Shown here: positions 1-32,237 of the stretch, piece by piece
Numbering within the stretch: position 1 is the first letter of the stretch
Layout: the number at the start of each line of letters is the position of its first letter
IMG/VR virus record: IMGVR_UViG_3300037508_000376
Location: 1-32,237 of that record
Reading direction: 5' to 3' (one strand)
Length of the DNA stretch: 32,237 bases
Source of the DNA: a virus
Program-made: the position numbers and the translations under genes
Notes under the pieces: generated by a model
Told to the model about the DNA's origin: nothing
Databases searched by the model: none
Seen by the model: only the letters and a program-made list of their open reading frames with translations

Positions 1-634
1 CAAAAGCACCTGTTCTTGAGTCAGTAGCGTGAATAACACCTGTTGCCATATCACTTCTAACGGAGTTACCTGAAGCTGGAAACCATACAAAAGGTTGCTG
101 TCCATTAACACCTCCAAATGTAGCGGCTACACCAATTGATGTTATAATATTTCCAGAACTTGTTCTATTCAAAACACCCATTGATAAATATCTTGTATTG
201 GGATTTATTCCATTTGTAATTACATAACAGTCATCAGTCCAAGTTGTAGATATTTTAGTTGTGTTTGGATCAGTTATAACCGCACCACTTGAAACAATTT
301 GAGCCTGTCTTGCAACAGTTGATTGAGTTGCATTATTTGTATTACCGCTTTGATCATACCAAGTTGTTACAAATCCATTGCCTGCACCAACAAAAGAAAG
401 TAATGCAGCTGAATCTAAAACATTGTTTGAATCATAACCAATATTCTGCTCAGTATTATCTGAACTTCTACGAACACGAATTAAATTACCCGTATAGGTT
501 GATGATAATCTTCTAAGTGAATAAGCTATTGCAGCACCAGAATAAGTATCTAATAAACCCACAAATGATGGAGCTGATCCTCTGGCTAAGATGCCATGTG
601 TTGTTAAAAACATACTATTGCCGTAACCAATCAT
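1..634 (-). CDS. LamG/arabinofuranosidase-B-like virion protein, N-terminal part (gene crosses the contig cut)
   Basis: This is the N-terminal part of a 290-residue protein whose 3' end lies at 31872-32110. The start at 634 overlaps the stop of the upstream gene as ATGA; a second in-frame ATG lies at 613. The N-terminus begins MIGYGNSMFL, followed by AYSLRRLSS, RVRRSSDN and VTTWYDQSGN. This pattern is typical of the arabinofuranosidase-B catalytic-like (LamG/concanavalin fold) domain often found in phage tail proteins. The rest is beta-rich and ends in WNSEQSTNRT. It lies among tail genes, so a glycan-binding or glycan-cleaving role at the tail tip is likely. I cannot show that the catalytic residues are present, so binding alone is possible. 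The frame is open over the whole cut. Confidence 0.85.
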   Translation of the reverse strand, partial: MIGYGNSMFLTTHGILARGSAPSFVGLLDTYSGAAIAYSLRRLSSTYTGNLIRVRRSSDNTEQNIGYDSNNVLDSAALLSFVGAGNGFVTTWYDQSGNTNNATQSTVARQAQIVSSGAVITDPNTTKISTTWTDDCYVITNGINPNTRYLSMGVLNRTSSGNIITSIGVAATFGGVNGQQPFVWFPASGNSVRSDMATGVIHATDSRTGAF

Positions 635-897
635 AATACCAAACAAACAGATCCAGATGTCAATGTGACACCACTAAATTTTGCACCATTGATTGCTCTG
701 ATAATAGCTCCAGCCTTTACTGCAGTTCCTGTTGCTGCAATATAGGTTGACTTTACATCAGTATTAGCAACCTTGATTGAACTGAATACTGTATCCTCAA
801 GGACCACAATTGCATCATGATTGATTGTTTTCTCGACAGTGTTGTTCACTATGAATGTTCCTTGTTGTGCTGTTAACACGCTGTTTGAAATTGCCAT
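631..897 (-). CDS. small virion-associated protein, unknown function
   Basis: The product is 88 aa, rich in Thr, Val, Ala and Ile, with no membrane segment, and looks like an all-beta domain. It sits between a fibre-like protein (910-1371) and the LamG-like protein and shares an ATGA overlap with the latter. The start is preceded by an A/T-rich stretch with no Shine-Dalgarno motif, as is usual in Bacteroidota. From its place it is probably a small tail or fibre accessory protein. I do not recognise a named family. Confidence 0.7.
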   Translation of the reverse strand: MAISNSVLTAQQGTFIVNNTVEKTINHDAIVVLEDTVFSSIKVANTDVKSTYIAATGTAVKAGAIIRAINGAKFSGVTLTSGSVCLVL

Positions 898-909
898 TTT
901 ATTTATTTA

Positions 910-1371
910 TTAAGTAGTTATATCTCCAGCTAATATCCATTCATCAGATCCAATCTTGATCAATGATGCTTCGGCATATTGTGCTGATAATTTTGTCTTG
1001 CCTAAAGATGATCTTAACGTAACACCTCCAGATGTGACAACTGTTGTCTGACCAGCTCCATATTGCATTAACAATATTTGTGTTCCTATTGGAAAGTTAA
1101 CACCAGACTCAGCTGGAATTCTCAAGTCATTTGCTGATCCAACATTCAACTTTAACAACTTGCCAGCATCACTGAGCTGTAAGTTGTTCAATAAACCTGT
1201 GTATGTTGCAATTTGAAGAGCATAAGTTTTAATCGCTTCTCTGACTTGTGCTCCAGTCATCTTTCTTGAAACATAAACACCAGGAGAAACATATTGCTCA
1301 ATCTCAAATATGTCATCATCAGCAAAAGTACTGGATGATAAGGCTGTTAGATCTTCAATTTTTACTCCCAT
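910..1371 (-). CDS. putative tail fibre/baseplate protein
   Basis: The 153-aa product has an N-terminal part (MGVKIEDLTALSSSTFADDD) like that of phage tail-fibre proteins that attach to the tail. Its C-terminal half has the pattern NFPIGTQILLMQYGAGQT, then LRSS and DEWILAGD. This is a beta-rich module found at the tips of many tail fibres and spike proteins, where the W-I-L-A-G-D ending is common. The gene follows the 800-aa distal tail gene with only one base between them. Receptor binding is an inference from context and this C-terminal pattern. Confidence 0.65.
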   Translation of the reverse strand: MGVKIEDLTALSSSTFADDDIFEIEQYVSPGVYVSRKMTGAQVREAIKTYALQIATYTGLLNNLQLSDAGKLLKLNVGSANDLRIPAESGVNFPIGTQILLMQYGAGQTTVVTSGGVTLRSSLGKTKLSAQYAEASLIKIGSDEWILAGDITT

Positions 1372-1372
1372 G

Positions 1373-3775
1373 TTATGCTTGTATTTCTCTGATTAAACCA
1401 TCCTGTGTGATCCTTATCTCATTTGTCTGAGTGAACCTTGTTAAAGGATCAGTATATGGATCATAAGGAGGAGTCACTATTGTTGTTTGAATACCTTCTC
1501 CTTGTATTATGCGAATCAGTTCGACAACTGTACTCTGATTCTTTCCACTCTGATAGTCACTAACTTTGAGCAACCTATATACAACACCATCAATCTGAAT
1601 TAAGTTTCTGAAATCAAGACTATTGATATCTGATGGTCTCAGCATAACAGAGCAACTGATTTGCTTTCCAAATCTTGATATCAATTCCTTGATGAACTTC
1701 TCATGATACAGATATAAGTTGTTGGTTGTGTAACTACTTGTTGACCAAAAGACATAACTTGGCACCCCAAAATTAAAATCAAAGGATGGTGAATCAAGGC
1801 TGTCCAAATGACCAACATAGGGATATGATGCTTCTGCATTGGGCACCCCACTTTCATCCCTATGCTCCCATGCTCCTGTTCTCAATCCACCTAACTGCAC
1901 AATGAATGGCTTGCCTTTTTTCTTTTCAATCAAGCTGGTGCCATCCTCATTGAACTTAACCTGGAATGATCTCGGAACAATCAAGTCAGTGAATGATGAT
2001 GGTGAATCCTCTGGAATCCTTACCAATAGCTTTTGGCTGAATGGTAACTTGAATTGAGTATCGCTTGTTGCAAATTGACTTTGACTCTCAATCAAGAATG
2101 AGCCATATTGCTCCTGGACATCATCCAGATATCTTGTGTTCCAATAGTCATCATCTTGCTCAAAATTAAATTTGTAATTCTTTGAACTGAAATTAATGGT
2201 TGGCTCAATTGTAATATCCTTTGATCTGTCCAGTTTATAAGTCCAATCAATTGCATCACCACTGGCATTGTAAAAATCAGACAATGGCTCAATCTCCAAT
2301 ATTGTTGGATCAGCTGTTGATGGCTTGACATACAAGTTGAATGCTGTGATAATACCCTTGAGGAATTGATCACATGTCATATCAGGAAGGAAAGCATCAA
2401 GATAAACTGTGGCTCCAGCTGTAATTGATTGTTGCTGTTTTAAAATGTCAAGATCAGATGTGTTGGATAAAATCTCCACCAATGTAGTTGAGGATGTTAA
2501 TCCAGTTCTTTGAATATAACAACTGTTAATCCTGAATCGAACCTCAAATCTCAACACATCATTATAATCAACATTCAATCCTCTTGTGTAATCAAATGAG
2601 AATGTCACAGCTGTTGTTGCCGATGTTAATTGACCAGAATAAATAATGTCATTAGACATCACATAGTTATTCTTATATATCAAAAACCTAACTTCATAAT
2701 CTCCACTCACACTAAATGCACCAGATCCATCTCCACTAATTACAATATTCAAATCATGATCACCAAAATAATTCAATTGATAAAGTCCAGTTGATGCACA
2801 AACAACCTTCAAAGGTGATGCGTCTTGAGCTTGACTTAAATTATCTTGATTGATGATAGCAGAATAATCTGATAATATTTCATAATCATTGTATATCACA
2901 ACACCAAGCTGAGTTGGATCAGCATTGAATGGCACCCCTCCACTTCCAAAAAAACCATTACTCAAAAAGTAACCGCTTGATGTTGTACTGTTGTCTTGTG
3001 TTGTGAACACAGATTCATTATCAGCTTGAGCTTGTGTAATGGTTGGAAGATCCCCTCCAGGATAAGCCATTAACAGCTTCTTGAATAATTGACTCTCAAG
3101 GAAATTACTATCCCATGTGATGCCAGCATAGTTAAATGCCTTCTGCAATACCTCATAGCAAAACACTTGAGGAGGAATGTGTTCCACTCCAAATGTGGAT
3201 GGAGTTGGCCGAGTAAACCCGTAATCAATCAAGCCGTAGTAATATCCTCGGCCAGTCCATCCTTGAGAGTCTTGATTACTGGAAGGAGATCCATTCAACT
3301 GGATGATTCCATTCCATGTGTCTTGTTGGTTGTCGTATGTCAGAGCATGGTTGTACTCTGAGAATCCAAGCTCATTGACCTTAATCTTTGTAAGTCTTGA
3401 GATGTAATCAATTGTGTCACTGACAAGAGTAATGTCAAATGACCAGACTCCATTCATAAGCTTGCAACTCATAAGCTGAGCTACACCATTAAACTCAAGC
3501 AATCCATTCTGGTAATATTGACATTCAGCTTTTATGCTTGGATCAAAGTCAATGAAATCAGAATCAGTACCCGAGATATTCTCGGTAACTGACAAAGTGA
3601 ATACACTCAACATCAGAGCTGTATTGCTCTTTGTTCCTGGCAATGTAATGGTCTTGGACTTATTGCCTTTCCTTGCATTCAGATCCTTGATATCATTGAT
3701 ATTGAATGTCAATGGAAATGGAGCATCTTGATCAATATCAACCAGTCTCCCATTTATGAATAATTCTCCAGCCAT
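1373..3775 (-). CDS. large distal tail/baseplate protein (800 aa)
   Basis: The product is 800 aa and mainly beta, opening MAGELFINGRLVDIDQDAPF. Such N-termini occur in large tail proteins of Bacteroidota phages that follow the distal tail gene. Internal parts include a segment around residues 455-500 (DAFLPDMTCDQFLKGIITAF) that resembles the hub-like domains of tail-associated proteins. The start overlaps the stop of the 400-aa gene at 3775. A Tal/gp27-like baseplate hub is my best reading. No peptidase or depolymerase motif is visible. The identification rests on length, order and general composition rather than on a catalytic motif. Confidence 0.6.
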   Translation of the reverse strand: MAGELFINGRLVDIDQDAPFPLTFNINDIKDLNARKGNKSKTITLPGTKSNTALMLSVFTLSVTENISGTDSDFIDFDPSIKAECQYYQNGLLEFNGVAQLMSCKLMNGVWSFDITLVSDTIDYISRLTKIKVNELGFSEYNHALTYDNQQDTWNGIIQLNGSPSSNQDSQGWTGRGYYYGLIDYGFTRPTPSTFGVEHIPPQVFCYEVLQKAFNYAGITWDSNFLESQLFKKLLMAYPGGDLPTITQAQADNESVFTTQDNSTTSSGYFLSNGFFGSGGVPFNADPTQLGVVIYNDYEILSDYSAIINQDNLSQAQDASPLKVVCASTGLYQLNYFGDHDLNIVISGDGSGAFSVSGDYEVRFLIYKNNYVMSNDIIYSGQLTSATTAVTFSFDYTRGLNVDYNDVLRFEVRFRINSCYIQRTGLTSSTTLVEILSNTSDLDILKQQQSITAGATVYLDAFLPDMTCDQFLKGIITAFNLYVKPSTADPTILEIEPLSDFYNASGDAIDWTYKLDRSKDITIEPTINFSSKNYKFNFEQDDDYWNTRYLDDVQEQYGSFLIESQSQFATSDTQFKLPFSQKLLVRIPEDSPSSFTDLIVPRSFQVKFNEDGTSLIEKKKGKPFIVQLGGLRTGAWEHRDESGVPNAEASYPYVGHLDSLDSPSFDFNFGVPSYVFWSTSSYTTNNLYLYHEKFIKELISRFGKQISCSVMLRPSDINSLDFRNLIQIDGVVYRLLKVSDYQSGKNQSTVVELIRIIQGEGIQTTIVTPPYDPYTDPLTRFTQTNEIRITQDGLIREIQA

Positions 3776-4977
3776 CAGTTCAATTGTGATCTATATGTGT
3801 ATGTTCTTTCAATTGTAATCTGCTCCTGAATCAAGCCATCTATCCTCCTTGTCTTGAGCTGATAGCTGTTGTTAGTTACTTTCACTGGCTCAAAGTCAGT
3901 CCCATCATTAACCTCAAGATACACTGATGGTGATTCAAGCAAGTCTCTGACCAGCCATTGTTGAACATCTTGATTGATCCAGTCAGAATTCAATACCAAC
4001 TGATCAGATGATGTCTTGGCAAAATCAACCTTCTCTCCTTGATAGAGAGGATATGTATAACTGGTGCCATCCCAGACTCCTTTCTCTTTCTGATAGCCAT
4101 AGCTTTGAACTGTGGTTGAATCAATTGATACCAGTGAGAAGGTGAATGAATCCCACACTCCGAACTTATTCAACCAATGCAATCTTCTTGTCTCATATCT
4201 CTTGCATTCATTATCAATCCAAATAACAAAAGTTTCTGAACCACCATTAAATGCTCCGACTCCAGTACCTCTGACTATGACCTCATAATATGCGGCATCA
4301 TCAAAGTCACCTTGAGTCACAGTTGTATTGGCAATGATTGTCTGAGGAGATGCATCAACAACAAGGAATTCACTTAATGTGATGCTTGTCAAAACATTTG
4401 CAATGGTTGATCCTGATATATCTTTCAATCTGAATCTCACATTCACTGATGTATCTGTGCAAAGTACACCTAAAAATATCCTCTCATCCAATCCGCAGAA
4501 ATATTTTTTTGCTCTTGGAAATGTTGTCAAGAATAAAGTTCCAGGAGTCTGACTGTTGCTAGTACTCGCATTATAATCAAGGTAGTCCCATCCAATCCAA
4601 TCTTGATGTCTCAATGATGCATTGATTGCTTTCAATGTTGAGCTTGTGTCACTGGCTTGAATTGTCGGAGTTGTTCCATACTTTTCATAAACAATGATAT
4701 AATATTCATTGATTGCCGTATCATAGAAAGTTGTTAAGCTACCATCAACGACCAATGGACTTGTCAGAGTTGATTGCACAGCTTCAGATACATCAATCCT
4801 TCCAAGAGTATTAAATTGCCTGAATACCTCTTGAGTCAATCTCAAAGTTGAGTTAATATAAACCTCAACAATAAAACTGAAATTTGGTTGAGCAGTCTGA
4901 TTGCTGCTGAAAGTAAACACCAATGGATTCCCAGCTGGTGCAATCAATTGTGGCTCATCATATATTGTTACTGCCAT
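3775..4977 (-). CDS. distal tail structural protein (400 aa)
   Basis: The 400-aa product opens MAVTIYDEPQLIAPAGNPLVF and is predicted to be all-beta. A central segment reads RRLHWLNKFGVWDSFTF, a pattern (LN.FG.WD) that recurs in tail proteins of Bacteroidota phages. It overlaps the preceding tail completion gene by 10 bases and the 800-aa gene by one base, so the three are probably translated together. A distal tail (Dit-like) role is inferred from the place between the tail completion protein and the large hub-like protein. No enzyme motif was seen. Confidence 0.55.
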   Translation of the reverse strand: MAVTIYDEPQLIAPAGNPLVFTFSSNQTAQPNFSFIVEVYINSTLRLTQEVFRQFNTLGRIDVSEAVQSTLTSPLVVDGSLTTFYDTAINEYYIIVYEKYGTTPTIQASDTSSTLKAINASLRHQDWIGWDYLDYNASTSNSQTPGTLFLTTFPRAKKYFCGLDERIFLGVLCTDTSVNVRFRLKDISGSTIANVLTSITLSEFLVVDASPQTIIANTTVTQGDFDDAAYYEVIVRGTGVGAFNGGSETFVIWIDNECKRYETRRLHWLNKFGVWDSFTFSLVSIDSTTVQSYGYQKEKGVWDGTSYTYPLYQGEKVDFAKTSSDQLVLNSDWINQDVQQWLVRDLLESPSVYLEVNDGTDFEPVKVTNNSYQLKTRRIDGLIQEQITIERTYTYRSQLN

Positions 4978-5742: not shown

Positions 5743-6269
5743 AAAAAAAAACTGAAGAAATTTAAAAACTCATCACCAGGGAAATGTTCCTTGAATATAT
5801 TATATCTGTCCTCATTAGGATTCAGCACTCTTCCTCTGTCATCCTCCTGGCAGTACTCCATCCCTTGCTCAACGTACATGATTGCCAATGCTTGAGCTGG
5901 ATCCTGGCTAATATCTTCAATCAGCTTTAAGTCAATGATCTGACCAGTTGACACATGACCAAAGTTTTTCTCAAACTTGAACAGCTTGCCATCAATACTA
6001 ATCAACTCTTTTGGCTCTTGATAATTATAGGATGTTAATATCTTGAGCATGTGAGATGAAGCCTCTTGGATGCTATTGACATCAGCTCTCTTTATCTTAT
6101 TAATTGACTCTCCAGAGAATAAGCTGAGCAACTGACATTGGAAGATTAAGAATTGAGTAATATCATCCTTGTGATCCTTCATTGCCTCTGCCATCATCAG
6201 CCACCTTGACATCTGGTCTGGGGTGCATTCACTTATTGATCCTGGTAGTTTTATCTCAAGTTGTTTCAT
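5559..6269 (-). CDS. tail assembly chaperone, zero-frame product (G-like)
   Basis: The zero-frame product is 236 aa. Its first 176 residues are a helical protein (start MKQLEIKLPGSISECTPDQM) that fits the tail assembly chaperone class. The gene lies directly after the large terminase (4-base overlap) and before the tail completion gene. At residues 174-176 the codons TTT TTT TTG follow a T, giving the heptamer T TTT TTG in the correct frame for a -1 slip. The last 60 residues in the zero frame look less protein-like than the -1 frame over the same bases. The short form may therefore be either a true zero-frame product, as in lambda gpG, or partly a shadow. Confidence 0.75.
   Translation of the reverse strand: MKQLEIKLPGSISECTPDQMSRWLMMAEAMKDHKDDITQFLIFQCQLLSLFSGESINKIKRADVNSIQEASSHMLKILTSYNYQEPKELISIDGKLFKFEKNFGHVSTGQIIDLKLIEDISQDPAQALAIMYVEQGMEYCQEDDRGRVLNPNEDRYNIFKEHFPGDEFLNFFSFFLDLSEKRKMAILGIQTARARMEMMQIVQDQKIQSGLTGQLSYIDYPKKWELVWTKLRNSLM
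5742..5748 (-). promoter_or_regulatory. predicted -1 ribosomal frameshift slippery site
   Basis: On the minus strand a run of nine T (plus-strand A at 5743-5751) followed by GG includes T TTT TTG in phase with the zero frame, which is the X XXY YYZ form. A weak hairpin (AAGAT, loop GGCT, ATCTT at 5710-5723) lies 18 bases downstream, further than the usual 5-9 bases. Slippage here would join the chaperone N-domain to the 87-codon -1 frame. Confidence 0.65.
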
Positions 6270-7468
6270 ACTCTCAATGCCATGTATCTTCCTTTGTTGC
6301 TGTATTCCTTTCTACAATTCCAAGCCAATGCTGTTGAGATGACACCATCATCATGTAAGCCAGCTGGAGCTGAATAAGTCACGTTCCTTGTGTTCGGATT
6401 GTAAATATAGGAAAAATTCTCAATCTCATCTATCAACCATTGCTCATTGACAACTGAGATTGCTGATTGCTCAAATGCAACAGCCAGGTCCTCAATGATG
6501 ATTGGCTTTGTTTTGGATGTTGTTACAAATGGATGGATCAAGTTCCGACACCTTGTCTGGAGCATTTCAAAGAATACATCACCTTGATTGTTCACCTCAA
6601 CCAATGTTGTTGCATTATATTGCTTGATGATGGTTGCCACCTTCTCAATTATCTTGCTCCATTCATCATGTCTCCATCTGTGAGCTGCAACCATCTGCCC
6701 ATCTTGATTGATGATAGTTAAAACAGTGTAGTCATCAGCTCTACCAATATCTAAGCCAGCATACATCTTGGCTGTCTTGACTCCAGCTCCAATGCATTGA
6801 TTGACATTCTTGAATATACCACTGGCATTATCAATGAACTCAGCCAAGTACTCCTGTCTGAATACATGATCTGGCAATGACCTTTTCCTCTCATCCAATT
6901 CTCTTGGATCAATCATAGGATTGTCATAGGATGTAAAATGAAAGTAAGCATAACGATCATCATAGTTTGGCTGCATGCAGAGCTTATGAAAATGATTCCT
7001 CCCTTTCGGAGTTGAGATAAAAATAATCTTCTTGCCTTTGACCAGGACTGTTGCACTCAACACCTCATCCCATAACTCAGCCCTGGTGAATGCCATCTCA
7101 TCCACAACCATGTAATCAAATGTGTTACCTCGGATGTTATCTGGTCTCTCACCGGAAAAGAATTCAATGGTTGATCCAAATCCAGAGATCATCAAGTCTG
7201 ATCTATTGAATGAGAATAAACCACTGGCTGATGTGGCTCTCTCCATTTCAGAGAATACTTTCTTGCCTTGCTTATAAACTGGAGTAACCCAAGCTATTTT
7301 GCAACCTTTGTCATTGATGGCCCACCATAACAATTGGTTGATGCCAAGCATAGTCTTGCCGAACTGCCTTCCAATGTTCAGAGCATAGTACTTCTCATGA
7401 CCATGGTTGATTGCATCATGAATACTCCTCTGATTCTCATGAGGCTTGTAACCTTTGATAGTACTCAT
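6266..7468 (-). CDS. terL: terminase large subunit
   Basis: The 400-aa protein is the DNA packaging motor. The N-terminal ATPase has a Walker A-like motif GRQFGKT (residues 33-39), a Walker B motif MVVDE (120-124) and the coupling motif STP (152-154). The C-terminal RNase-H-fold nuclease has GLDIGR with D240, then LVEVNNQGD with E291, and HDDG with D373/D374, as expected for the metal-binding acids. It follows the small subunit with a 4-base overlap. It is separated from portal and capsid genes by the whole tail module, which is unusual. The class (pac, cos or other) cannot be fixed from sequence alone, though the circular assembly with no fixed ends fits circular permutation. Confidence 0.97.
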   Translation of the reverse strand: MSTIKGYKPHENQRSIHDAINHGHEKYYALNIGRQFGKTMLGINQLLWWAINDKGCKIAWVTPVYKQGKKVFSEMERATSASGLFSFNRSDLMISGFGSTIEFFSGERPDNIRGNTFDYMVVDEMAFTRAELWDEVLSATVLVKGKKIIFISTPKGRNHFHKLCMQPNYDDRYAYFHFTSYDNPMIDPRELDERKRSLPDHVFRQEYLAEFIDNASGIFKNVNQCIGAGVKTAKMYAGLDIGRADDYTVLTIINQDGQMVAAHRWRHDEWSKIIEKVATIIKQYNATTLVEVNNQGDVFFEMLQTRCRNLIHPFVTTSKTKPIIIEDLAVAFEQSAISVVNEQWLIDEIENFSYIYNPNTRNVTYSAPAGLHDDGVISTALAWNCRKEYSNKGRYMALRV

Positions 7469-7863
7469 TCAAAATCAAACTTCTCAACATTCCTGGTCTC
7501 AACCTGTTGTCTGTCATGCATGCCAAGTCTGTTCTTTGCATAGAAGATTCCTTTGCCTTCATTGCCAACAATGTCAATGGCTAAGCCTTTGAATAGGTCA
7601 TCTATTTTTTTGATAGTGTCGGATTTGAGTTTGTCATCAGAGTTCAACCAAGCATAATAAGTATCTCTATGAATACTCTTATCTTTCCTCACAATAGGGA
7701 TCCAAATTCTTAGAAAATAGTCTATTGTTGGAATATGTCTATCCAATACCATAACAATATCTCCTTTATTAGATATCATTTCTTTCTTATGGTTAAGACA
7801 CTCCTCAATATAGATATGAGCAAGTTCCTCCAGATGTATTATAAACTCATCGGAATATGCCAT
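7465..7863 (-). CDS. terS: terminase small subunit
   Basis: The 132-aa product overlaps the start of the large terminase by 4 bases. It has a helical, HTH-like middle (IDYFLRIWIPIVRKDKSI, then DTYYAWLNSDDKL) and a C-terminal segment FYAKNRLGMHDRQQVE. This ending is common in small terminase proteins of Bacteroidota phages, where it precedes the tail that binds the large subunit. It would recognise the packaging site on phage DNA. The bases before the start, TAAGAACAATGGC on the minus strand, are shared with the gene at 25117-25647. Confidence 0.85.
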   Translation of the reverse strand: MAYSDEFIIHLEELAHIYIEECLNHKKEMISNKGDIVMVLDRHIPTIDYFLRIWIPIVRKDKSIHRDTYYAWLNSDDKLKSDTIKKIDDLFKGLAIDIVGNEGKGIFYAKNRLGMHDRQQVETRNVEKFDFE

Positions 7864-7889: not shown

Positions 7890-8957
7890 TTATTTACAAT
7901 ACTTAACATAAAACGTATATGGCACAACTTTAAGCTTTGCAAGTATCCAGATGAGATGCTTGTATTTTTTAAAGTCATATCTGTCGAAATATGATCTATC
8001 TCTCTTATGAAGATTCACCAACCTCATCATCCTTTCAGCATCTTTGCCAAGTTTAGTGAAATCAAACTCTGACTTGACAGAGAAGAGTTCTTTGGCTTGC
8101 TCTTTTGTTAGCTTACCACTTCTCACTTGAGCAGCAAGATAAACAATCCTTTTATCAATGCCAAACTTCTCTGGCAGAAGGAATGATCCAACAAATTCAG
8201 TGTACACATTCTCACAATGTTTGCCACCATAATCTTGCCAGTTGATTAGTCTCTTCATCTCAGCCTCCATTGATTCTCTGTCGAATCCATAATGAAATGG
8301 TCTCACATTCTTGATGCCCATAAGAGCATAGAATAATTGATCCTTGAAAGTGAACAGAGGATAATTGTGAAGCTTGAGTCCAGTATACTTGTTATAAACT
8401 GACTGAATATATTTTGCATCCATGTATGTCCATCCTTTTGGAGTTGATCCTTCTGTTCTAAAATCATGACCATTGAGAATGTACTTGATCTGATATTTGA
8501 ATGCAGTATCATACATGAGCTTTGTCATTGCAATATCATTTGGAATATCAGCATCTGGAACACCAGCCCAAAGGAAAGAATCATTCAGCCTATCATATTC
8601 AGATTTATTGACATTGTAAGTGATGCAATCAACTCCAAGCTTTTCAACCAGAGCTCTCATGTTGTGGATTGCTTCTGGAGCATTCCAATTGTTATCAAAG
8701 TGAATGACAAGAGGCTTGAGATTCCAATATCTCACAGCTGTGAATAATAGTGTTGATGAGTCAATCCCTCCAGAGATCCCCATGATGCAGTCATATTTCT
8801 TATCCTTTCCAGCTTGTCTTATCTTGGAAATGATATGCTTGAGTTCATGTGGATTTGCCTGGAGCTCCAGTTCATCATGGAGATCACAGTATTCACATTG
8901 AGTCTCACCTATTGAGGCAATGGACTCATTAAATAAACAGCGTTGACATTCTTTCAT
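7890..8957 (-). CDS. N-acetyl sugar amidotransferase (WbpG/PseA-like, TIGR03573 type)
   Basis: The 355-aa product has the family plan of N-acetyl sugar amidotransferases. An N-terminal pair of CxxC motifs (Cys4/Cys7 and Cys21/Cys24) may bind zinc. It is followed by a PP-loop ATP-binding motif SGGIDSS (62-68) and the segments VIHFDNNWNA and ILNGHDFRTEG. These enzymes use ATP and ammonia or glutamine nitrogen to turn an N-acetyl group on a nucleotide sugar into an acetamidino group, as in pseudaminic acid and O-antigen pathways. I chose the start at 8957; the frame extends to 9146, but that part overlaps the upstream gene and lacks family features. It overlaps the upstream glycosyltransferase by 29 bases. 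No separate glutaminase partner (PseB/HisH-like) is present. Confidence 0.88.
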   Translation of the reverse strand: MKECQRCLFNESIASIGETQCEYCDLHDELELQANPHELKHIISKIRQAGKDKKYDCIMGISGGIDSSTLLFTAVRYWNLKPLVIHFDNNWNAPEAIHNMRALVEKLGVDCITYNVNKSEYDRLNDSFLWAGVPDADIPNDIAMTKLMYDTAFKYQIKYILNGHDFRTEGSTPKGWTYMDAKYIQSVYNKYTGLKLHNYPLFTFKDQLFYALMGIKNVRPFHYGFDRESMEAEMKRLINWQDYGGKHCENVYTEFVGSFLLPEKFGIDKRIVYLAAQVRSGKLTKEQAKELFSVKSEFDFTKLGKDAERMMRLVNLHKRDRSYFDRYDFKKYKHLIWILAKLKVVPYTFYVKYCK

Positions 8958-9669
8958 AATTAACAAATTTATGATAAATTTTTGAGATATAGTCATTGTT
9001 AAAATACCTATCATGATATTGAAACATAATACTTCTGCAGATATCATCAACTGATTGATATGGAATGGATAAAGGAAGATCACCATTGTATATTGATTTC
9101 TTTCCCATGAGTCCCATTTCAATGTTTGTATTTGGACAGCCATCATGCTCAGTTAATCTCAGATTGATAAAGCATTGAGAATATACATCCACAAGTTGAT
9201 CCTTTGTGAACGTATCATGACCAGCTCTGATGATAGGAATGTTGATGCGTTCCTTTATCTCATTGATCATTGACTCACCATAATACTCTGGAGCATTGCC
9301 AGAATACCAGAAGATCTTATCTCCATTTGGCACCAATGGCCAATGGTGAGGAATGACTGCATTGATTGGACACCAGATTGAGTCAATACCTTTGGCCTCC
9401 AATGTTTCTTGGACTTGATGACTCACAGCAATGTTCCTTGCATTTTTAACAAACTTTATCCAATCAGCTGGAAGATCCTTGGCATCTGATCCGAACCAAA
9501 CAATTGTGCTAGTTCCAAGATGTGTTGCTAATAATACTAGGTCCTCTTCTCTATACATCCCCATAAACACAATCTCACCAATGCAATTCTCATAAGGAAT
9601 GAGATTATATTTTTCAATCAATCCTTTGTCAAGACCAGCAAGAGATTCTGAGATGTGAGCTTGCATCAT
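8929..9669 (-). CDS. glycosyltransferase, GT-B-like
   Basis: The 246-aa product looks like a short GT-B glycosyltransferase. The N-terminal half has a Rossmann-like segment (IVWFGSDAKDLP). The C-terminal half has IFWYSGNAPEYYG and then LRLTEHDGCPNTNIEMGLMG, which resembles the donor-sugar site (E-rich loop and following helix) of GT4-type enzymes. The start overlaps the stop of the preceding glycosyltransferase as ATGA; a second ATG follows at 9666. It stands between another glycosyltransferase and a sugar amidotransferase, so transfer of a modified sugar is likely. The acceptor is unknown. Confidence 0.75.
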   Translation of the reverse strand: MMQAHISESLAGLDKGLIEKYNLIPYENCIGEIVFMGMYREEDLVLLATHLGTSTIVWFGSDAKDLPADWIKFVKNARNIAVSHQVQETLEAKGIDSIWCPINAVIPHHWPLVPNGDKIFWYSGNAPEYYGESMINEIKERINIPIIRAGHDTFTKDQLVDVYSQCFINLRLTEHDGCPNTNIEMGLMGKKSIYNGDLPLSIPYQSVDDICRSIMFQYHDRYFNNDYISKIYHKFVNYERMSTLFI

Positions 9670-10364
9670 AACAATTCTTTAAGTTCACTAAATCCATCAT
9701 CAATCAGACTTGGATCATATCTCTCTGACTTGAGAGCTCCACTCCAATGATCATGGAATTTATGTTTGTTCATCCATTTATTAGTTGAGATTGATAACAG
9801 CTTAATATGTTTCTCAGCTGGAATGATTCCAATCTCTTGCTCTAATTTCATTGCCTTTATCCACATAGACCAATCAAGACCAGCATTCAATCTTGGATCA
9901 AATGGTCTCCAGTTTATTTTATTTAAAAAGTCAGCTCTCAGCACTCTTCCAATTCCAATTGGCTCCTGGTATCTCTGTCCTGGTGCATATCCTTTCCAGT
10001 TCACTAATCTTATTGTCTCAGATACATCTGCAAAGTGACAGCCAAGCATTCCAAGCATTCCAAAGTCTTGGATGTGAAGCTTGATTGACTCAACATAATC
10101 ATCAGAACACCAGTCAGATGATCCCATGAACATCACAGCATCAGCTTTGTAGTATCTTGATGCAGCGAATCCAGAATTCCATTTGTTGCCAAGAGGATCA
10201 TTATCAATGTGAATGAATTCAATATCAAACTCCTTTGCTATATCTTGAGCTTCTTTCTCATGGCCCATAATAATGGGAATGACTCCTTGCCTTTTAAGTC
10301 TTGAGATAGTTAATCTGACAAGAGGAAATCTGCCAAAAACAGGTATTGGTGCAGTGACTATCAT
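9666..10364 (-). CDS. glycosyltransferase, GT-A family 2-like
   Basis: The 232-aa product has features of a GT-A fold glycosyltransferase. They are an N-terminal VTAPIPVFGRFPLVRLTISRL, FIHIDNDPLGNKWNSGF (like the pre-DXD region), then MFMGSSDWCSDDYV in the place of the DXD/DDD metal-binding motif, and a later PRLNAGLDWSMWIKA. The gene overlaps its upstream neighbour by 4 bases and its downstream neighbour by 4 bases. No membrane segment is visible, so a soluble enzyme acting in the host cytoplasm is likely. Its donor and acceptor cannot be read from sequence. Confidence 0.75.
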   Translation of the reverse strand: MIVTAPIPVFGRFPLVRLTISRLKRQGVIPIIMGHEKEAQDIAKEFDIEFIHIDNDPLGNKWNSGFAASRYYKADAVMFMGSSDWCSDDYVESIKLHIQDFGMLGMLGCHFADVSETIRLVNWKGYAPGQRYQEPIGIGRVLRADFLNKINWRPFDPRLNAGLDWSMWIKAMKLEQEIGIIPAEKHIKLLSISTNKWMNKHKFHDHWSGALKSERYDPSLIDDGFSELKELL

Positions 10365-10597
10365 TGTTTGACTCCTATAAAATGAATCTTAGGCTTGAGA
10401 TGCTCTCCATCATTGATAGACTTCACCAGCTTGCTCATTGCATTTCGTATACATGTTGCACATCCTAAATTGACCTTGCCATGACCAGCTGATATATGCC
10501 ATTGATTGAGTTCCTTTTTTAGTTGAGCATTCAAAGAGAATGATCTTGTCCTTGAGAATCTTTCAGCTTGCTCTTTTAGTTCATTGCTTATGTTCAT
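10361..10597 (-). CDS. small conserved-looking protein with CxxC motif
   Basis: The 78-aa product is basic and has a segment LGCATCIRNAMSKLVKSI in its middle, with one CxxC pair. Similar short proteins with a GCxTCIRNAM motif occur in Bacteroidota phages next to regulatory and packaging genes. It overlaps the membrane protein upstream by 17 bases and the glycosyltransferase downstream by 4 bases, so it belongs to the same message. The function is unknown; the CxxC pair could hold metal or form a disulphide. Confidence 0.65.
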   Translation of the reverse strand: MNISNELKEQAERFSRTRSFSLNAQLKKELNQWHISAGHGKVNLGCATCIRNAMSKLVKSINDGEHLKPKIHFIGVKQ

Positions 10598-10796
10598 AAA
10601 TCAGTATTAAGTCAGAGATTAGATAAGTTATAAATGCCATGCCAATAAGCATGTAATCAACCACACAACAACCAGCAACAGCTATCCAAAATGATAGACA
10701 GCTCTGGCAATTAAATGGCTTGTAGTCTGGAAGATTGAAGCTCTGGAGAGCTCTCGCAATCCCTATTGGAATAGTGATAAGTAAAATGTAAATCAT
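10581..10796 (-). CDS. small membrane protein with CxxC motif
   Basis: The 71-aa product has hydrophobic segments at about residues 2-18 (IYILLITIPIGIARAL) and 35-65 (FWIAVAGCCVVDYMLIGMAF and onwards). Between them is a loop with FNCQSCLSFW. Small membrane proteins with a NCxxCLSFW loop are common in Bacteroidota phages, but I know of no tested role. The start lies 86 bases inside the 3' end of the sigma-like gene, in another frame, a long but not rare overlap for phages. It could interact with the host membrane or take part in lysis; neither is shown. Confidence 0.65.
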   Translation of the reverse strand: MIYILLITIPIGIARALQSFNLPDYKPFNCQSCLSFWIAVAGCCVVDYMLIGMAFITYLISDLILIYEHKQ

Positions 10797-13024: not shown

Positions 13025-13055
13025 CAAATGTACTAAAATAATTTTAATTGTGCAA
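13025..13055 (-). promoter_or_regulatory. Bacteroidota-type promoter for the recombination operon
   Basis: On the minus strand TTG (13053-13055), a 20-base spacer, and TACATTTG (13025-13032) match the Bacteroidota consensus TTG, N17-23, TAnnTTTG. The element overlaps the end of the methyltransferase gene and sits just upstream of erf. It would give the ERF, exonuclease and DUF3127 genes a start of their own. Confidence 0.6.
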
Positions 13056-13683
13056 CATGGTTGTTAATTCTTTCCATTGCCTTATCAAAATATTCTTTGT
13101 CAAGTTCGCATGCCGTTAAGTCAAATCCATAGTCATGGCATGCTATTGCTATTGAGCCACTGCCTAAATGAGTATCAAGTATTTTGTCTCCTTGCTTTGC
13201 GTATTTATCAAGTAGCCATTTGTAAAGAGCAACTGGTTTTTGAGTTGGATGGATTCGTGTTTCTTTATTTTTCATGTCACCTTGTAACATTCCTGCCCAT
13301 CTAAATTCAAATTTTCTCACCGCTGTTTTATGATTTGTCCATGCAAGTTCACAATCTGCAAAGTCATTATCTCCATTTTGTTTATCCCAAACAACCCAGC
13401 TCGAGCTATTTGAATTAGGTATATTTTCAATAAAATGATTAGCTCCCCAAATAATAACTTGTTTTGATACTCTTGTAAGTTCAATAAAATAATCTTTTGA
13501 TGGTACTAAACTATCCCAATTTTTAGCTGTATATAGTGTAGGTCTTGTTGCCTTTCCTCTTGAATGATTCTTTGCACCATCCTCACCTATCCCATATGGC
13601 GGATCAACAATAGCCAAATCAAAGTAATTATCTGGATAGCGAGCCATGAGCTCCATGTTATCTTCATTGGTTATATTAAGCAT
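13033..13683 (-). CDS. DNA adenine N6-methyltransferase (beta-class order)
   Basis: The 216-aa product has motif IV DPPY (27-30) near the N-terminus and the SAM-binding motif DTHLGSGS (about 170-177) near the C-terminus, preceded by HPTQKPVALYKWLL. This order is that of beta-class adenine methyltransferases. No target recognition domain beyond the short middle part is visible, so the target is not readable. The gene overlaps the VRR-NUC nuclease gene by 13 bases. It may protect phage DNA from host restriction enzymes or mark phage DNA, or it may pair with the nuclease upstream. Confidence 0.88.
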   Translation of the reverse strand: MLNITNEDNMELMARYPDNYFDLAIVDPPYGIGEDGAKNHSRGKATRPTLYTAKNWDSLVPSKDYFIELTRVSKQVIIWGANHFIENIPNSNSSSWVVWDKQNGDNDFADCELAWTNHKTAVRKFEFRWAGMLQGDMKNKETRIHPTQKPVALYKWLLDKYAKQGDKILDTHLGSGSIAIACHDYGFDLTACELDKEYFDKAMERINNHVAQLKLF

Positions 13684-28357: not shown

Positions 28358-29005
28358 ATGATATTTGTTTATCCATATCACAGTAAGGCTGAATCTGACT
28401 TTGAAATAACTCAATCAATCAGACTTGTTAAGCTTGTTTATCCAGATGCTGAGATATGGACCATTGGTAAGGCCATTGATGGAGTCAATAATCTTCCATG
28501 CAATCAGCACAATAATATCAGAGGCTGTGATGTTACCAATAGAATTCTGACTTTTGCCAAGAAGATTGGAGGAGATTTCATCTACATGAACAAAGATTTC
28601 TTTATCACAAAATCATGGCAATCTCATGTGGCCATAAATATGGGATCCATCATTGTGAATCCAGAGCATCCACCACATACTCAGATTGCTCAACAAAATA
28701 CTCTTGAATTCTTAAAGCATAACAACTTCACAGCTTATAACTATGAGACACATACACCAGTTATGATGAACAGCAAAAAGTTGATTGATTTATTTGACAA
28801 TATAAACTGGCAGAATGACAACCATTTCATCAAATCAATTTATTGCAATGTTTACAAGGTACCATCAAAGGAAGGATTCAATTGTAAGGTCTCAGTTCCA
28901 AACATTGACAAAGTTAAAGAATTGATAATCTTGCAAGGATGCTTCTCAACTGGTGATGCTTTTTGGAATGTATCCAGGACTGAATGGTTTAAAACGTGGT
29001 TTTAG
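28358..29005 (+). CDS. Stealth-like glycosyltransferase, only plus-strand gene
   Basis: From the ATG at 28358 the product has 215 aa; an upstream TTG at 28349 is less likely. The N-terminal part (MIFVYPYHSKAESDFEITQS, then YPDAEIWTIGK) starts like a nucleotide-sugar transferase. GGDFIYMNKDFFITKSW resembles the NDDxF motif of Stealth phosphotransferases and related GT-A enzymes, here N-K-D-F-F. YNYETHTPVMMNSKKLIDLF matches the HTP motif that follows. It lies between the tape measure (17-base convergent overlap) and the protease gene, the only gene on this strand. It may work with the glycan genes at 7890-10364. Confidence 0.7.
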   Translation: MIFVYPYHSKAESDFEITQSIRLVKLVYPDAEIWTIGKAIDGVNNLPCNQHNNIRGCDVTNRILTFAKKIGGDFIYMNKDFFITKSWQSHVAINMGSIIVNPEHPPHTQIAQQNTLEFLKHNNFTAYNYETHTPVMMNSKKLIDLFDNINWQNDNHFIKSIYCNVYKVPSKEGFNCKVSVPNIDKVKELIILQGCFSTGDAFWNVSRTEWFKTWF

Positions 29006-31637
29006 CCTCTTGCAATTGTACCTTATTCTGTGTTCCTGTAATATCAGACTCCAATACTACCACTTGACTGACAGGAATATTATTCCCTTGTCCAAGGCCC
29101 AATGTTGTCAGATCAGTTTGTTGTGTATTCGTGTTGGCTGTGAATGAACTTGCTCCAGCTCCAGCTGCTCCTGCTCCACCATTTGATAGTTGTGGTGCAG
29201 TTGGTGCAGATCCAGCTTGATACTTCTGATTCATGATGGCCATTGCTTGAGTAATACCAATCAATGATGCTGATGCAATGGCAGCAATACCAGCTGGAGA
29301 TGGAGGAGGACCAAATTGAGCAATCCCCTTCACAATAGCTGATGCTGTATCAATGGCAACTTGAGCAAGTTTCAATGCTTTGTCTCTATTGAATTGAGCT
29401 TTCTTAATTTTCTCCTCTTGCTCATATGCCTGGAGTTGAACTTGATATTTTTGCTTTGCAAAGTTTTCCTCAATTTTTTTCTTCTGATCAGCTGTCAATC
29501 CTTCTTGACTCAATTGAGCTTGTAAGTTCTTATCAAGATTGGCAAGATCTTCATCTCTATTTTTGGCAATTGAATTCAACCTGGCTTTATCAATCTCATT
29601 GATGAATGCATTTATCTTCTTAAGTTCATCCAATCCTTTTTGAGCTGCATCAATAGCCTCTGTCACTCTCTTAAGTGATTCCTCTCTGGCTTTAATCTCA
29701 TTGGCCTTAGCTTGATCATCATATTTCTTGTCAATCTCAGCTCTCTTCTTTCTGTATTCATCTTGAGCTTTTAATTGAGCATCATAATACTCCTCCTCAT
29801 CAATTGCTCCAGCTTTGAATGCTGCCAAGTTCAATGCCTCTTGTTTTTTATACCATTCATCAAGATCAAGCAATTCATTCTCTCTCTCATCATTCATGAA
29901 TCTTGTTATCTGATTTCTCAAATCTTTCTTTCTTGCCTCTTGCTCTGCAATCTTATCAAGCTCCATTTGATTGTACTTCTCAATGATTGCCATCCTATCA
30001 ACATTCTCCTGGACCTTGAGCTGATATTCAAGCAATCCATTTCCATGAGCTTGTTCATATCTCTTATCATATGAAATGGCCAACAATAAGAGCTCTTTAT
30101 CTTTGCTCTCTTGCATTAAATCCAAGCTCAATTGAAATTGCTCATCCTCTGCCTTGATTCTGTCATCATTGGCTTTCTTTTCAGCCTCTGCCAATTCTTT
30201 TAATCTCTTAATCTCATCCTCTTGTCTCTTCTTAATTTTGGCCTTTCTTTTTTCATAGGCTTTATCTGCCTCATCTTGCCTTCTCTTTTCCTCCTCTATC
30301 TGCAAGATGGTTAAATCTTCTGCATTTTTCTTGTTGACTTTGTATTGATCATTGGCATTTTTCTTGGCATCTTTCAATGACTTCTCTAATTTCTTAGCTC
30401 TGTCACTATCAGCATCACCAGTCTTTTTAAGCAATGCAATCTCTGCCTCATAAGCTGCAATCTTTTCTTTCTGCATTGCAAGGATTGCTCTTCCAGATCT
30501 CAATGCAGCCTTGAGTTTTTTCTCCTCCATCTCCTCTGTATTCTTTCCAGCTGCCTGTGCCTTTCTGATTTCAAATGAAAGATTCTCATCCACAGCTCTT
30601 GCTTTCTTCTGCTCAGCTGCAATCTTCTTATTCATCTCTTTCTCTGTGGCATCAGTCTTGGCCTTGGCATTGGCCTTCATCTTGATGGTATTCTGATCAT
30701 CAATAATACCTAAGTATTCAAGAGCTTTGATTGTGCTGTATATGATACCAATGAAAGGAAAGAATATTGAAATCAATATCTTAATCTTTGGTCCAAGCTT
30801 CTCAAACTGAGCATAAGCTTTCATCGTATACTCAGCAAGCACATCAAAGTTAGCAATCAACATTCCAATGGCAACCACAATTGCACCAATCCCTGTTGCA
30901 ATCAATGCCAATCTGAATAACTTCATGGCTGTTGTTGCTCCACCTGTTGCTGCAGCAAGAGTCACATTGGCTCCAGCTTGAGCTTCTGTTGCAACAACAT
31001 TGGCAACAGCTGGTGCAATACTACCAGTTAAGATGAAATTTTTAGCTTTCTCAAGTCCATTCCTAAGTTGTAATCCAAGGATGGATTCCTTATTCAAATT
31101 ATTTGCGATTATACTCACTGAATTAACAAGTCCCTGGACAGCTTGCAACTTAACCATGGTCTCAACCAATGCCTCATTCTCAACTCCAGCCAATGCAGCT
31201 GCAGATTGTATTCCTTGGAATGCCGCTGCTCCTGTCTCAACTCCTTGCAATGCAGTATCAACACCAACAAAGTCAGATGATAAAGCTGTTGTTTGTGCCT
31301 TTAAATCTCCAATCTCATCCTTTAATCCAGCTGCATTTGTAATGGCTTGCTTTCCAACAGGACTTGATGCACCAGCTTTGGCAGCTAAGTTCTGATATTC
31401 CTTCATTAACCTGGTCATCTCCCTCATGGTCAATCCACCATCCTGGAGTCTCTGATTAAGCTCAGCAAGCTTCTGATCAAATGCCTCCATTCCTTGATTG
31501 GATGCCTCTGTTGCTGTCTTGGATGTATCCTTTAAATCTTTGTTTAATTCCTCAACAGCTTTGTCGAATGATTGGATATCTTGAACAGATTTTCCAGTAT
31601 CAACCTTCAGTGAGAATACTGCTGTTTTTTCTGCCAT
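28989..31637 (-). CDS. tape measure protein
   Basis: The 882-aa product is the tail tape measure. The N-terminal part has long helices (MAEKTAVFSLKVDTGKSVQD onward). Two hydrophobic segments lie at about residues 235-265 (LFRLALIATGIGAIVVAIGM) and 285-305 (KILISIFFPFIGIIYSTIKA). A long Lys/Glu/Ala-rich coiled coil follows from about 320 to 760 and a Gly/Ala/Thr-rich end after it. This is the longest protein of the phage. By the usual ratio of about 0.15 nm per residue the tail would be near 130 nm long. It comes after the distal tail genes, not before them as in most siphoviruses. Confidence 0.93.
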   Translation of the reverse strand: MAEKTAVFSLKVDTGKSVQDIQSFDKAVEELNKDLKDTSKTATEASNQGMEAFDQKLAELNQRLQDGGLTMREMTRLMKEYQNLAAKAGASSPVGKQAITNAAGLKDEIGDLKAQTTALSSDFVGVDTALQGVETGAAAFQGIQSAAALAGVENEALVETMVKLQAVQGLVNSVSIIANNLNKESILGLQLRNGLEKAKNFILTGSIAPAVANVVATEAQAGANVTLAAATGGATTAMKLFRLALIATGIGAIVVAIGMLIANFDVLAEYTMKAYAQFEKLGPKIKILISIFFPFIGIIYSTIKALEYLGIIDDQNTIKMKANAKAKTDATEKEMNKKIAAEQKKARAVDENLSFEIRKAQAAGKNTEEMEEKKLKAALRSGRAILAMQKEKIAAYEAEIALLKKTGDADSDRAKKLEKSLKDAKKNANDQYKVNKKNAEDLTILQIEEEKRRQDEADKAYEKRKAKIKKRQEDEIKRLKELAEAEKKANDDRIKAEDEQFQLSLDLMQESKDKELLLLAISYDKRYEQAHGNGLLEYQLKVQENVDRMAIIEKYNQMELDKIAEQEARKKDLRNQITRFMNDERENELLDLDEWYKKQEALNLAAFKAGAIDEEEYYDAQLKAQDEYRKKRAEIDKKYDDQAKANEIKAREESLKRVTEAIDAAQKGLDELKKINAFINEIDKARLNSIAKNRDEDLANLDKNLQAQLSQEGLTADQKKKIEENFAKQKYQVQLQAYEQEEKIKKAQFNRDKALKLAQVAIDTASAIVKGIAQFGPPPSPAGIAAIASASLIGITQAMAIMNQKYQAGSAPTAPQLSNGGAGAAGAGASSFTANTNTQQTDLTTLGLGQGNNIPVSQVVVLESDITGTQNKVQLQEAKTTF

Positions 31638-31882: not shown

Positions 31883-32237
31883 TCCAATAAGTTTTAGCGT
31901 TTGTTTCTATTCCTGTTCTGTTTGTGCTTTGCTCTGAGTTCCAATAAACATATTCAGCATATCTACCACCCATAAATAAGGTAGCACCAGACTGACCAAA
32001 TCTATCCATATTTGAGCCAGCTTGTGATGCTTCAGTTCCTGTTGTTGCTAATTGAGAACCATTTAAAAACACACGCTTAACATTTGAAGCGTCTTTTAAA
32101 CTTGTTGCTACAAAAGCACCTGTTCTTGAGTCAGTAGCGTGAATAACACCTGTTGCCATATCACTTCTAACGGAGTTACCTGAAGCTGGAAACCATACAA
32201 AAGGTTGCTGTCCATTAACACCTCCAAATGTAGCGGC
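31872..32237 (-). CDS. LamG/arabinofuranosidase-B-like virion protein, C-terminal part
   Basis: This is the 3' part of the gene described at 1-634; bases 32111-32237 are the duplicated end. On the circle the coding sequence runs from 634 down through base 1 and on from 32110 to 31872 (290 aa plus stop). The C-terminal half includes TWTDDCYVIT and the segment GGRYAEYVYWNS, a strand pattern usual at the end of LamG-like jelly rolls. The stop overlaps the start of the next gene (31882) by 11 bases, which fits translation from one message. The apparent 95-codon frame starting at 32159 is only an internal methionine and not the true start. Confidence 0.85.
   Translation of the reverse strand, partial: AATFGGVNGQQPFVWFPASGNSVRSDMATGVIHATDSRTGAFVATSLKDASNVKRVFLNGSQLATTGTEASQAGSNMDRFGQSGATLFMGGRYAEYVYWNSEQSTNRTGIETNAKTYWNVY
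32111..32237. repeat. 127-base copy of the window start
   Basis: Bases 32111-32237 are identical to 1-127. A repeat of exactly 127 bases at contig ends is the usual mark of a circular assembly graph made with a word length of 127. It points to a circular or circularly permuted genome of 32110 bp. A true terminal repeat of this length is possible but less likely. Confidence 0.9.

Follow-up and report, generated by a model that had tools for sequence, protein, structure and literature searches.

A recombining, probably glycan-writing locus immediately upstream of the terminase genes of uncultured freshwater phages, with what is apparently the first phage-encoded N-acetyl-sugar amidotransferase

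Among freshwater phages there is an abundant, uncultured group in which the stretch immediately upstream of the terminase genes is best explained as a recombining glycan-writing ("glycotype") locus, of which the three-gene cassette described here is the local allele. This conclusion follows from exchange at two levels, that of the middle gene of the cassette and that of the cassette as a whole; the exchange is new, while the kind of locus to which it belongs, that of phage glycan-modification loci, is known. The boldest reading, to which we give a probability of roughly 0.45, is that phages of this group exchange ready-made cassettes, among them one with an N-acetyl-sugar amidotransferase (NASAT) that would put cationic acetamidino sugars on virion proteins. 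Apparently no phage clade had been found to encode a NASAT before this one: a search of named phages (50,697 records) returned no match to either of the two glycosyltransferases (GTs) of the cassette or to its NASAT, nor any with a bacterial NASAT as query.

The window, by which we mean the whole stretch of DNA analysed, is IMGVR_UViG_3300037508_000376, positions 1 to 32,237, a single virus record (IMG/VR) of 32,237 bases. Because an exact 127-bp repeat stands at both ends of the record, it is taken as a complete genome of ~32.1 kb; the minus strand is the coding strand of this phage's genes. The features needed below are as follows.

32111..32237, no strand: 127-bp direct repeat, identical to window 1-127, which marks the record as a complete, circularly closed assembly
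10361..10597, minus strand: h1, a small conserved gene that bounds the exchangeable island on its upstream side
9666..10364, minus strand: GTA, 232-aa soluble GT-A fold glycosyltransferase, GT2-like
8929..9669, minus strand: GTB, 246-aa short GT-B fold (GT4-like) glycosyltransferase, in the exchangeable middle slot
7890..8957, minus strand: AMT, 355-aa N-acetyl-sugar amidotransferase of the NASAT/WbuX/WbpG type
7465..7863, minus strand: putative small terminase subunit (TerS), the next gene downstream, assigned from its position beside TerL only
6266..7468, minus strand: large terminase subunit (TerL), the backbone marker for the tree

An earlier note on this DNA had described three overlapping glycan genes at 7890-10364, beside the terminase. 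All three are present on the minus strand, directly upstream of the terminase genes and in one run of overlapping genes, with one start corrected: the NASAT frame was listed mechanically as 7890-9146 (418 aa), and conservation places its start at 8957 (355 aa, MKECxRC...). The overlaps are of 4 nt between h1 and GT-A, 4 nt between GT-A and GT-B, and 29 nt between GT-B and NASAT; a gap of 26 nt then precedes the putative TerS start, and the gene run continues into TerL. Family scans recover DUF3127, a BT4734-like primase, DUF6712 and an XkdF-like protease; neither an integrase nor a repressor was noticed among their results. This gene content, together with a portal and a primase nearest to those of Nonlabens and Flavobacterium phages, points to a host in the Bacteroidota. 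A further conserved gene, h2 (window 10581-10796), lies upstream whatever the cassette type; it encodes a small membrane protein in which the motif CQSCLSFW occurs, is possibly holin-like, and lies outside the exchanged block. A perfect 12/12 match to a sigma-70-type promoter (window 9632-9604, minus strand) falls within the GT-B gene, at its start; it is likely a chance product of the codons there, and Bacteroidota promoters differ from this consensus. The sigma-70 scan as a whole does scarcely better than shuffles.

The third gene had been read as a WbpG-like amidotransferase with two CxxC pairs and a PP-loop, and this assignment is borne out. Against TIGR03573 the protein scores 180.2 bits (E=7.1e-53) over profile positions 1-335 of 344, a nearly full-length match to the sugar family that lies far above other PP-loop families; a PDB sequence search gives 8wex as a weak match. 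The PP-loop motif SGGXDS is found as S62-G63-G64-I-D66-S67, all but X being invariant in 15 orthologs, and the four cysteines of the tetracysteine (C4/C7/C21/C24) are invariant in the same set. The family and the LpNASAT structure have been described, along with a tetracysteine pattern, CXXC-Xn-[GN]XCXXC (PMC10607449), of which the [GN] two residues before Cys3 is not kept in the phage clade. The score also lies under the curated TIGR03573 cut-off of 203.2 bits, as do those of three other phage NASATs (163-179 bits). We file the phage NASAT, on its sequence, as a divergent, phage-specific branch, not as a canonical member of TIGR03573. The tree, which 5 of the 20 Bacteroidia HisH/solo loci did not enter, gathers the phage NASATs into one clade on a very long stem, apart from the Bacteroidia NASATs (support 98/100), among which HisH-partnered and solo enzymes are intermixed. 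A contig scan with the phage NASAT as query brought up a single bacterial relative. A second group of NASAT-like domains is also seen in Bacteroidia (e.g. G139, G091, G106), in open frames of 600-720 aa that score ~95-144 bits on TIGR03573.

At least 172 viral contigs of IMG/VR carry the phage NASAT, with a shared gene neighbourhood wherever the flanks are long enough to judge. All relatives are metagenomic, identical contigs having been collapsed by NASAT sequence, and the locus counts given below are of matches listed, describing the sample, from which true frequencies may differ.

For the other two genes, which had been taken for a GT-A enzyme and a GT-B-like enzyme, the structure prediction that the earlier note had proposed yields confident folds (AF2, pLDDT 93.7 and 88.2, from models built from phage alignments only), and both assignments hold. 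GT-A has a weak Pfam match (Glycos_transf_2, 0.0047) and 48% identity to an uncultured Caudovirales GTA-type protein, and its best Foldseek matches are GT-A enzymes (6p61, WrtF). The motif G-S-S-D84-W and the residue D164 are invariant in 30 aligned orthologs; D84 would be the Asp motif and D164 a candidate catalytic Asp, exact roles that we assign by analogy. Foldseek also lists CMP-KDO synthetases, a reading that we reject: the N-terminal motif is GT2-like, the glycosyltransferase matches are better and the nucleotidyltransferase glycine loop is missing. GT-B, which is shorter than is usual for a fold of two Rossmann-like domains, finds no match in a family search and resembles GT4 enzymes by Foldseek (8xsh, SenB, SdgB, TarM and BshA; E ~1e-5, TM ~0.5-0.66). 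The PDB sequence search returned nothing for GT-A or GT-B, PHROGs and PADLOC nothing useful for any of the three proteins, and neither a membrane span nor a flippase is predicted among them; the enzymes are soluble.

The middle gene has been swapped or lost repeatedly. Among the 93 distinct loci in the matches listed, the slot between GT-A and NASAT holds GT-B in 57, a SAM methyltransferase (Pfam Methyltransf_23, 4e-14) in 21, a highly divergent GT-B in 3 and another GT-like protein in 2, and is empty in 10, three of which retain a scar of GT-B. Mapped onto the TerL tree (69 rows), the state of the slot changes at least 16 times, against a minimum possible of 6 and a shuffled mean of 26.7. In phages ~95% identical in GT-A, NASAT and TerL the slot may be filled by GT-B, by a divergent GT-B or by the methyltransferase, or may be empty, and in two pairs (L061/L064 and L043/L053) the slot gene is cleanly present in one member and absent from the other between flanks 92-99% identical. 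The clean deletion of GT-B in L043/G154, as compared with L053/G156, leaves a scar of 22 codons; the GT-B at first credited to L039, L043 and L055 is only apparent, being this scar of the deleted gene. The earlier note proposed a search for the same three-gene order in other phages and did not foresee this variability: GT-A and NASAT are kept in the near clade, the middle gene varies and there is no fixed three-gene unit.

In sister phages the cassette is also replaced as a whole. We had considered GT-A and NASAT to be invariant across the phage group, which is true of the near clade only; among 60 loci sampled by distant TerL, all from the matches listed and with enough upstream sequence, the NASAT set occurs in 7. 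At the same site other phages carry GT-B, GT2 and methyltransferase, or GT-B, methyltransferase and GT2, or a single relative of GT-A (~31% identical), or none of these, and no alternative cassette is without a GT or GT-like protein. One case is a pair of genomes of which one (G165) has the NASAT set and the other (G166) GT-B, methyltransferase and GT2; the cassettes, of 2.3 and 2.0 kb, are unrelated, and the flanks are identical at 93.4% over 6.25 kb on one side and 93.9% over 1.8 kb on the other. NASAT is missing altogether from five sister records of 31-34 kb. Relatives with TerL at ~67-71% have no glycosyltransferase at the cassette site, and another phage (L305/G171) has no such cassette there, from which it follows that the cassette is not universally needed.

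The cassette is one of a few variable loci, since small early genes, and tail genes too, are among the regions that fail to align between near-identical genomes; in the window these regions include the putative tail/fibre genes at 631-4977 (g01-g04, among them the tail genes g02-g04) and at 28989-31637 (882 aa). The putative TerS (window 7465-7863) likewise has divergent alleles, at ~68% vs 98% nucleotide identity in relatives L177-L184, between phages ~95% identical in NASAT and TerL. Some clades have inserts between NASAT and TerS (L177:5925-6371, L204:2072-2527, L220:5212-5646, L026:4964-5374 and L069:6340-6756), of which one is similar to a portion of the head protease gene and a second is apparently fused to a HAD-like phosphatase domain (judged by eye, with no family match).

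As to what such a locus would write, we infer the donor sugar, the order of steps, the ammonia source, the acceptor and the benefit. GT-A would take its N-acetyl sugar from a nucleotide sugar of the host and attach it to an acceptor, for which an exposed protein of the virion is the likeliest candidate. The chemistry proposed for NASATs is that a sugar N-acetyl group and ammonia give sugar-NC(=NH)CH3, with ATP going to AMP (PMC10607449), and the phage enzyme, using ATP at its PP-loop, would thus convert the N-acetyl to an acetamidino group, leaving a cationic sugar; it may act before or after sugar transfer. The middle-slot enzyme would finish the structure, GT-B adding a second sugar here and its counterparts in relatives a methyl group or nothing, and the benefit would be an altered surface identity of the particle, i.e. 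its 'glycotype'. The ammonia may be free or come in trans from the host. The earlier note saw no glutaminase partner, and there is indeed none: PF00117 is absent from 16/16 records, comprising the complete window genome and 15 relatives. A solo NASAT is not unusual, since of 20 Bacteroidia loci inspected 10 have a HisH-like motif within ~4 kb of the NASAT and the remaining 10 show none, HisH having been detected by motif in a set where 4/20 loci gave no NASAT by the motif test.

We prefer a virion acceptor because the enzymes are soluble, their genes immediately precede those of the terminase, 16/16 genomes lack base-modifying genes and precedents for virion glycans exist, namely the capsid and tail-tube glycans of mycobacteriophages (Freeman 2023, as cited in PMC12619734 and PMC11256854). 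That a glycosylated virion protein is the target seems to us an even bet, and its choice over the host surface is a judgement, not a measurement. If the cassette instead decorated O-antigen, capsule or S-layer late in infection, it would block superinfection or the adsorption of progeny to debris. NASATs normally serve O-antigen (PMC10607449) and are known from LPS glycans; one scores above the cut-off in 53/149 Bacteroidia genomes, and the closest bacterial NASAT among those retrieved sits in a polysaccharide locus. The GT clusters of pelagimyophages have been read as modifying the host O-chain (PMC7029224), and the high exchange rate is like that of serotype loci. Yet there is neither a membrane protein nor a flippase nor a polyprenol-phosphate GT in the cassette, its genes lead straight on to those of the terminase, which is a late position, and with no integrase or repressor noticed by family scans a lasting serotype conversion is not obvious. 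We consider a host-surface target unlikely, though it is the main rival.

The target might also be no surface at all but something soluble or a small molecule, such as a defence signal, a decoy or the pool of nucleotide sugars. PP-loop enzymes are versatile and the GT-B matches include the small-molecule GTs BshA and SenB, but the NASAT match is to the sugar family over nearly its whole length and PADLOC finds nothing, which makes a soluble target improbable. Phage GTs do often glycosylate DNA (e.g. as read in PMC10202952), and GT exchange could mirror escape from restriction if the GTs and NASAT built a charged sugar on phage bases. Here the first reading of the sequence, which saw no hydroxymethylase or other base-modifying gene and thought glycosylated DNA less likely, agrees with the wider sample: PF00303 (thymidylate-synthase/hydroxymethylase type) and PF12851 (TET/JBP) are absent in 16/16 genomes, the window and 15 relatives, the TET/JBP control being only weakly positive in reference genomes. 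The sole DNA-modifying gene seen is an N6/N4 DNA methyltransferase (window 13033-13683), absent from most complete relatives, and DNA hypermodification is accordingly very improbable.

The cassette genes are under purifying selection, with median dN/dS of 0.073 for NASAT, 0.145 for GT-A and 0.139 for GT-B, as compared with 0.062 for TerL. That they are hitch-hiking morons of no benefit to the phage, as the exchange and loss that do occur might suggest, is hardly credible given this constraint (0.07-0.15), the invariant key residues, the retention of GT-A in 16/16 near-complete relatives and of NASAT in 29/29 TerL-sampled near relatives, and the replacement of the cassette by functionally like genes instead of its decay.

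Phage glycosyltransferases are common, yet usually scattered and unexplained. Natural sets of near-identical phages here show the kept parts, the exchanged parts and the breakpoints at one locus, and the role of a phage glycan can be put to a direct test in phages among which little except the cassette varies.

Set beside known systems, the phage enzyme shares with the NASAT family (WbpG, WbuX, LpNASAT; TIGR03573) a nearly full-length match, the PP-loop, the four cysteines of the tetracysteine, the YGGKH motif and the solo arrangement of half of the sampled Bacteroidia loci; unlike the family it is phage-encoded, in a long-stem clade under the curated score, lacks [GN] before Cys3 and has no O-antigen locus around it. 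HisH/HisF-partnered NASAT systems encode a glutaminase alongside, which the phage genomes (16/16 without PF00117) do not. The gtrABC serotype-conversion modules, which comprise a flippase and polyprenol GTs and are found in temperate phages, resemble the present locus in being exchangeable glycan-writing genes; their flippase and membrane-bound GT have no counterpart here, where no cassette protein has a membrane span. The pelagimyophage host recognition cluster is likewise a hypervariable aquatic-phage region carrying GTs, but it is a tail-fibre island of ~45 kb in a T4-like phage (PMC7029224), as opposed to a precise ~2 kb cassette ahead of the terminase in a phage of ~32 kb. Mycobacteriophage Che8 and its relatives come close in that their encoded GTs are thought to act on structural proteins, though from another genomic place, and the citing papers mention no amidotransferase (PMC12619734, PMC11256854); here there is block exchange. 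The glycotype locus, if true, would be a phage counterpart of bacterial serotype loci.
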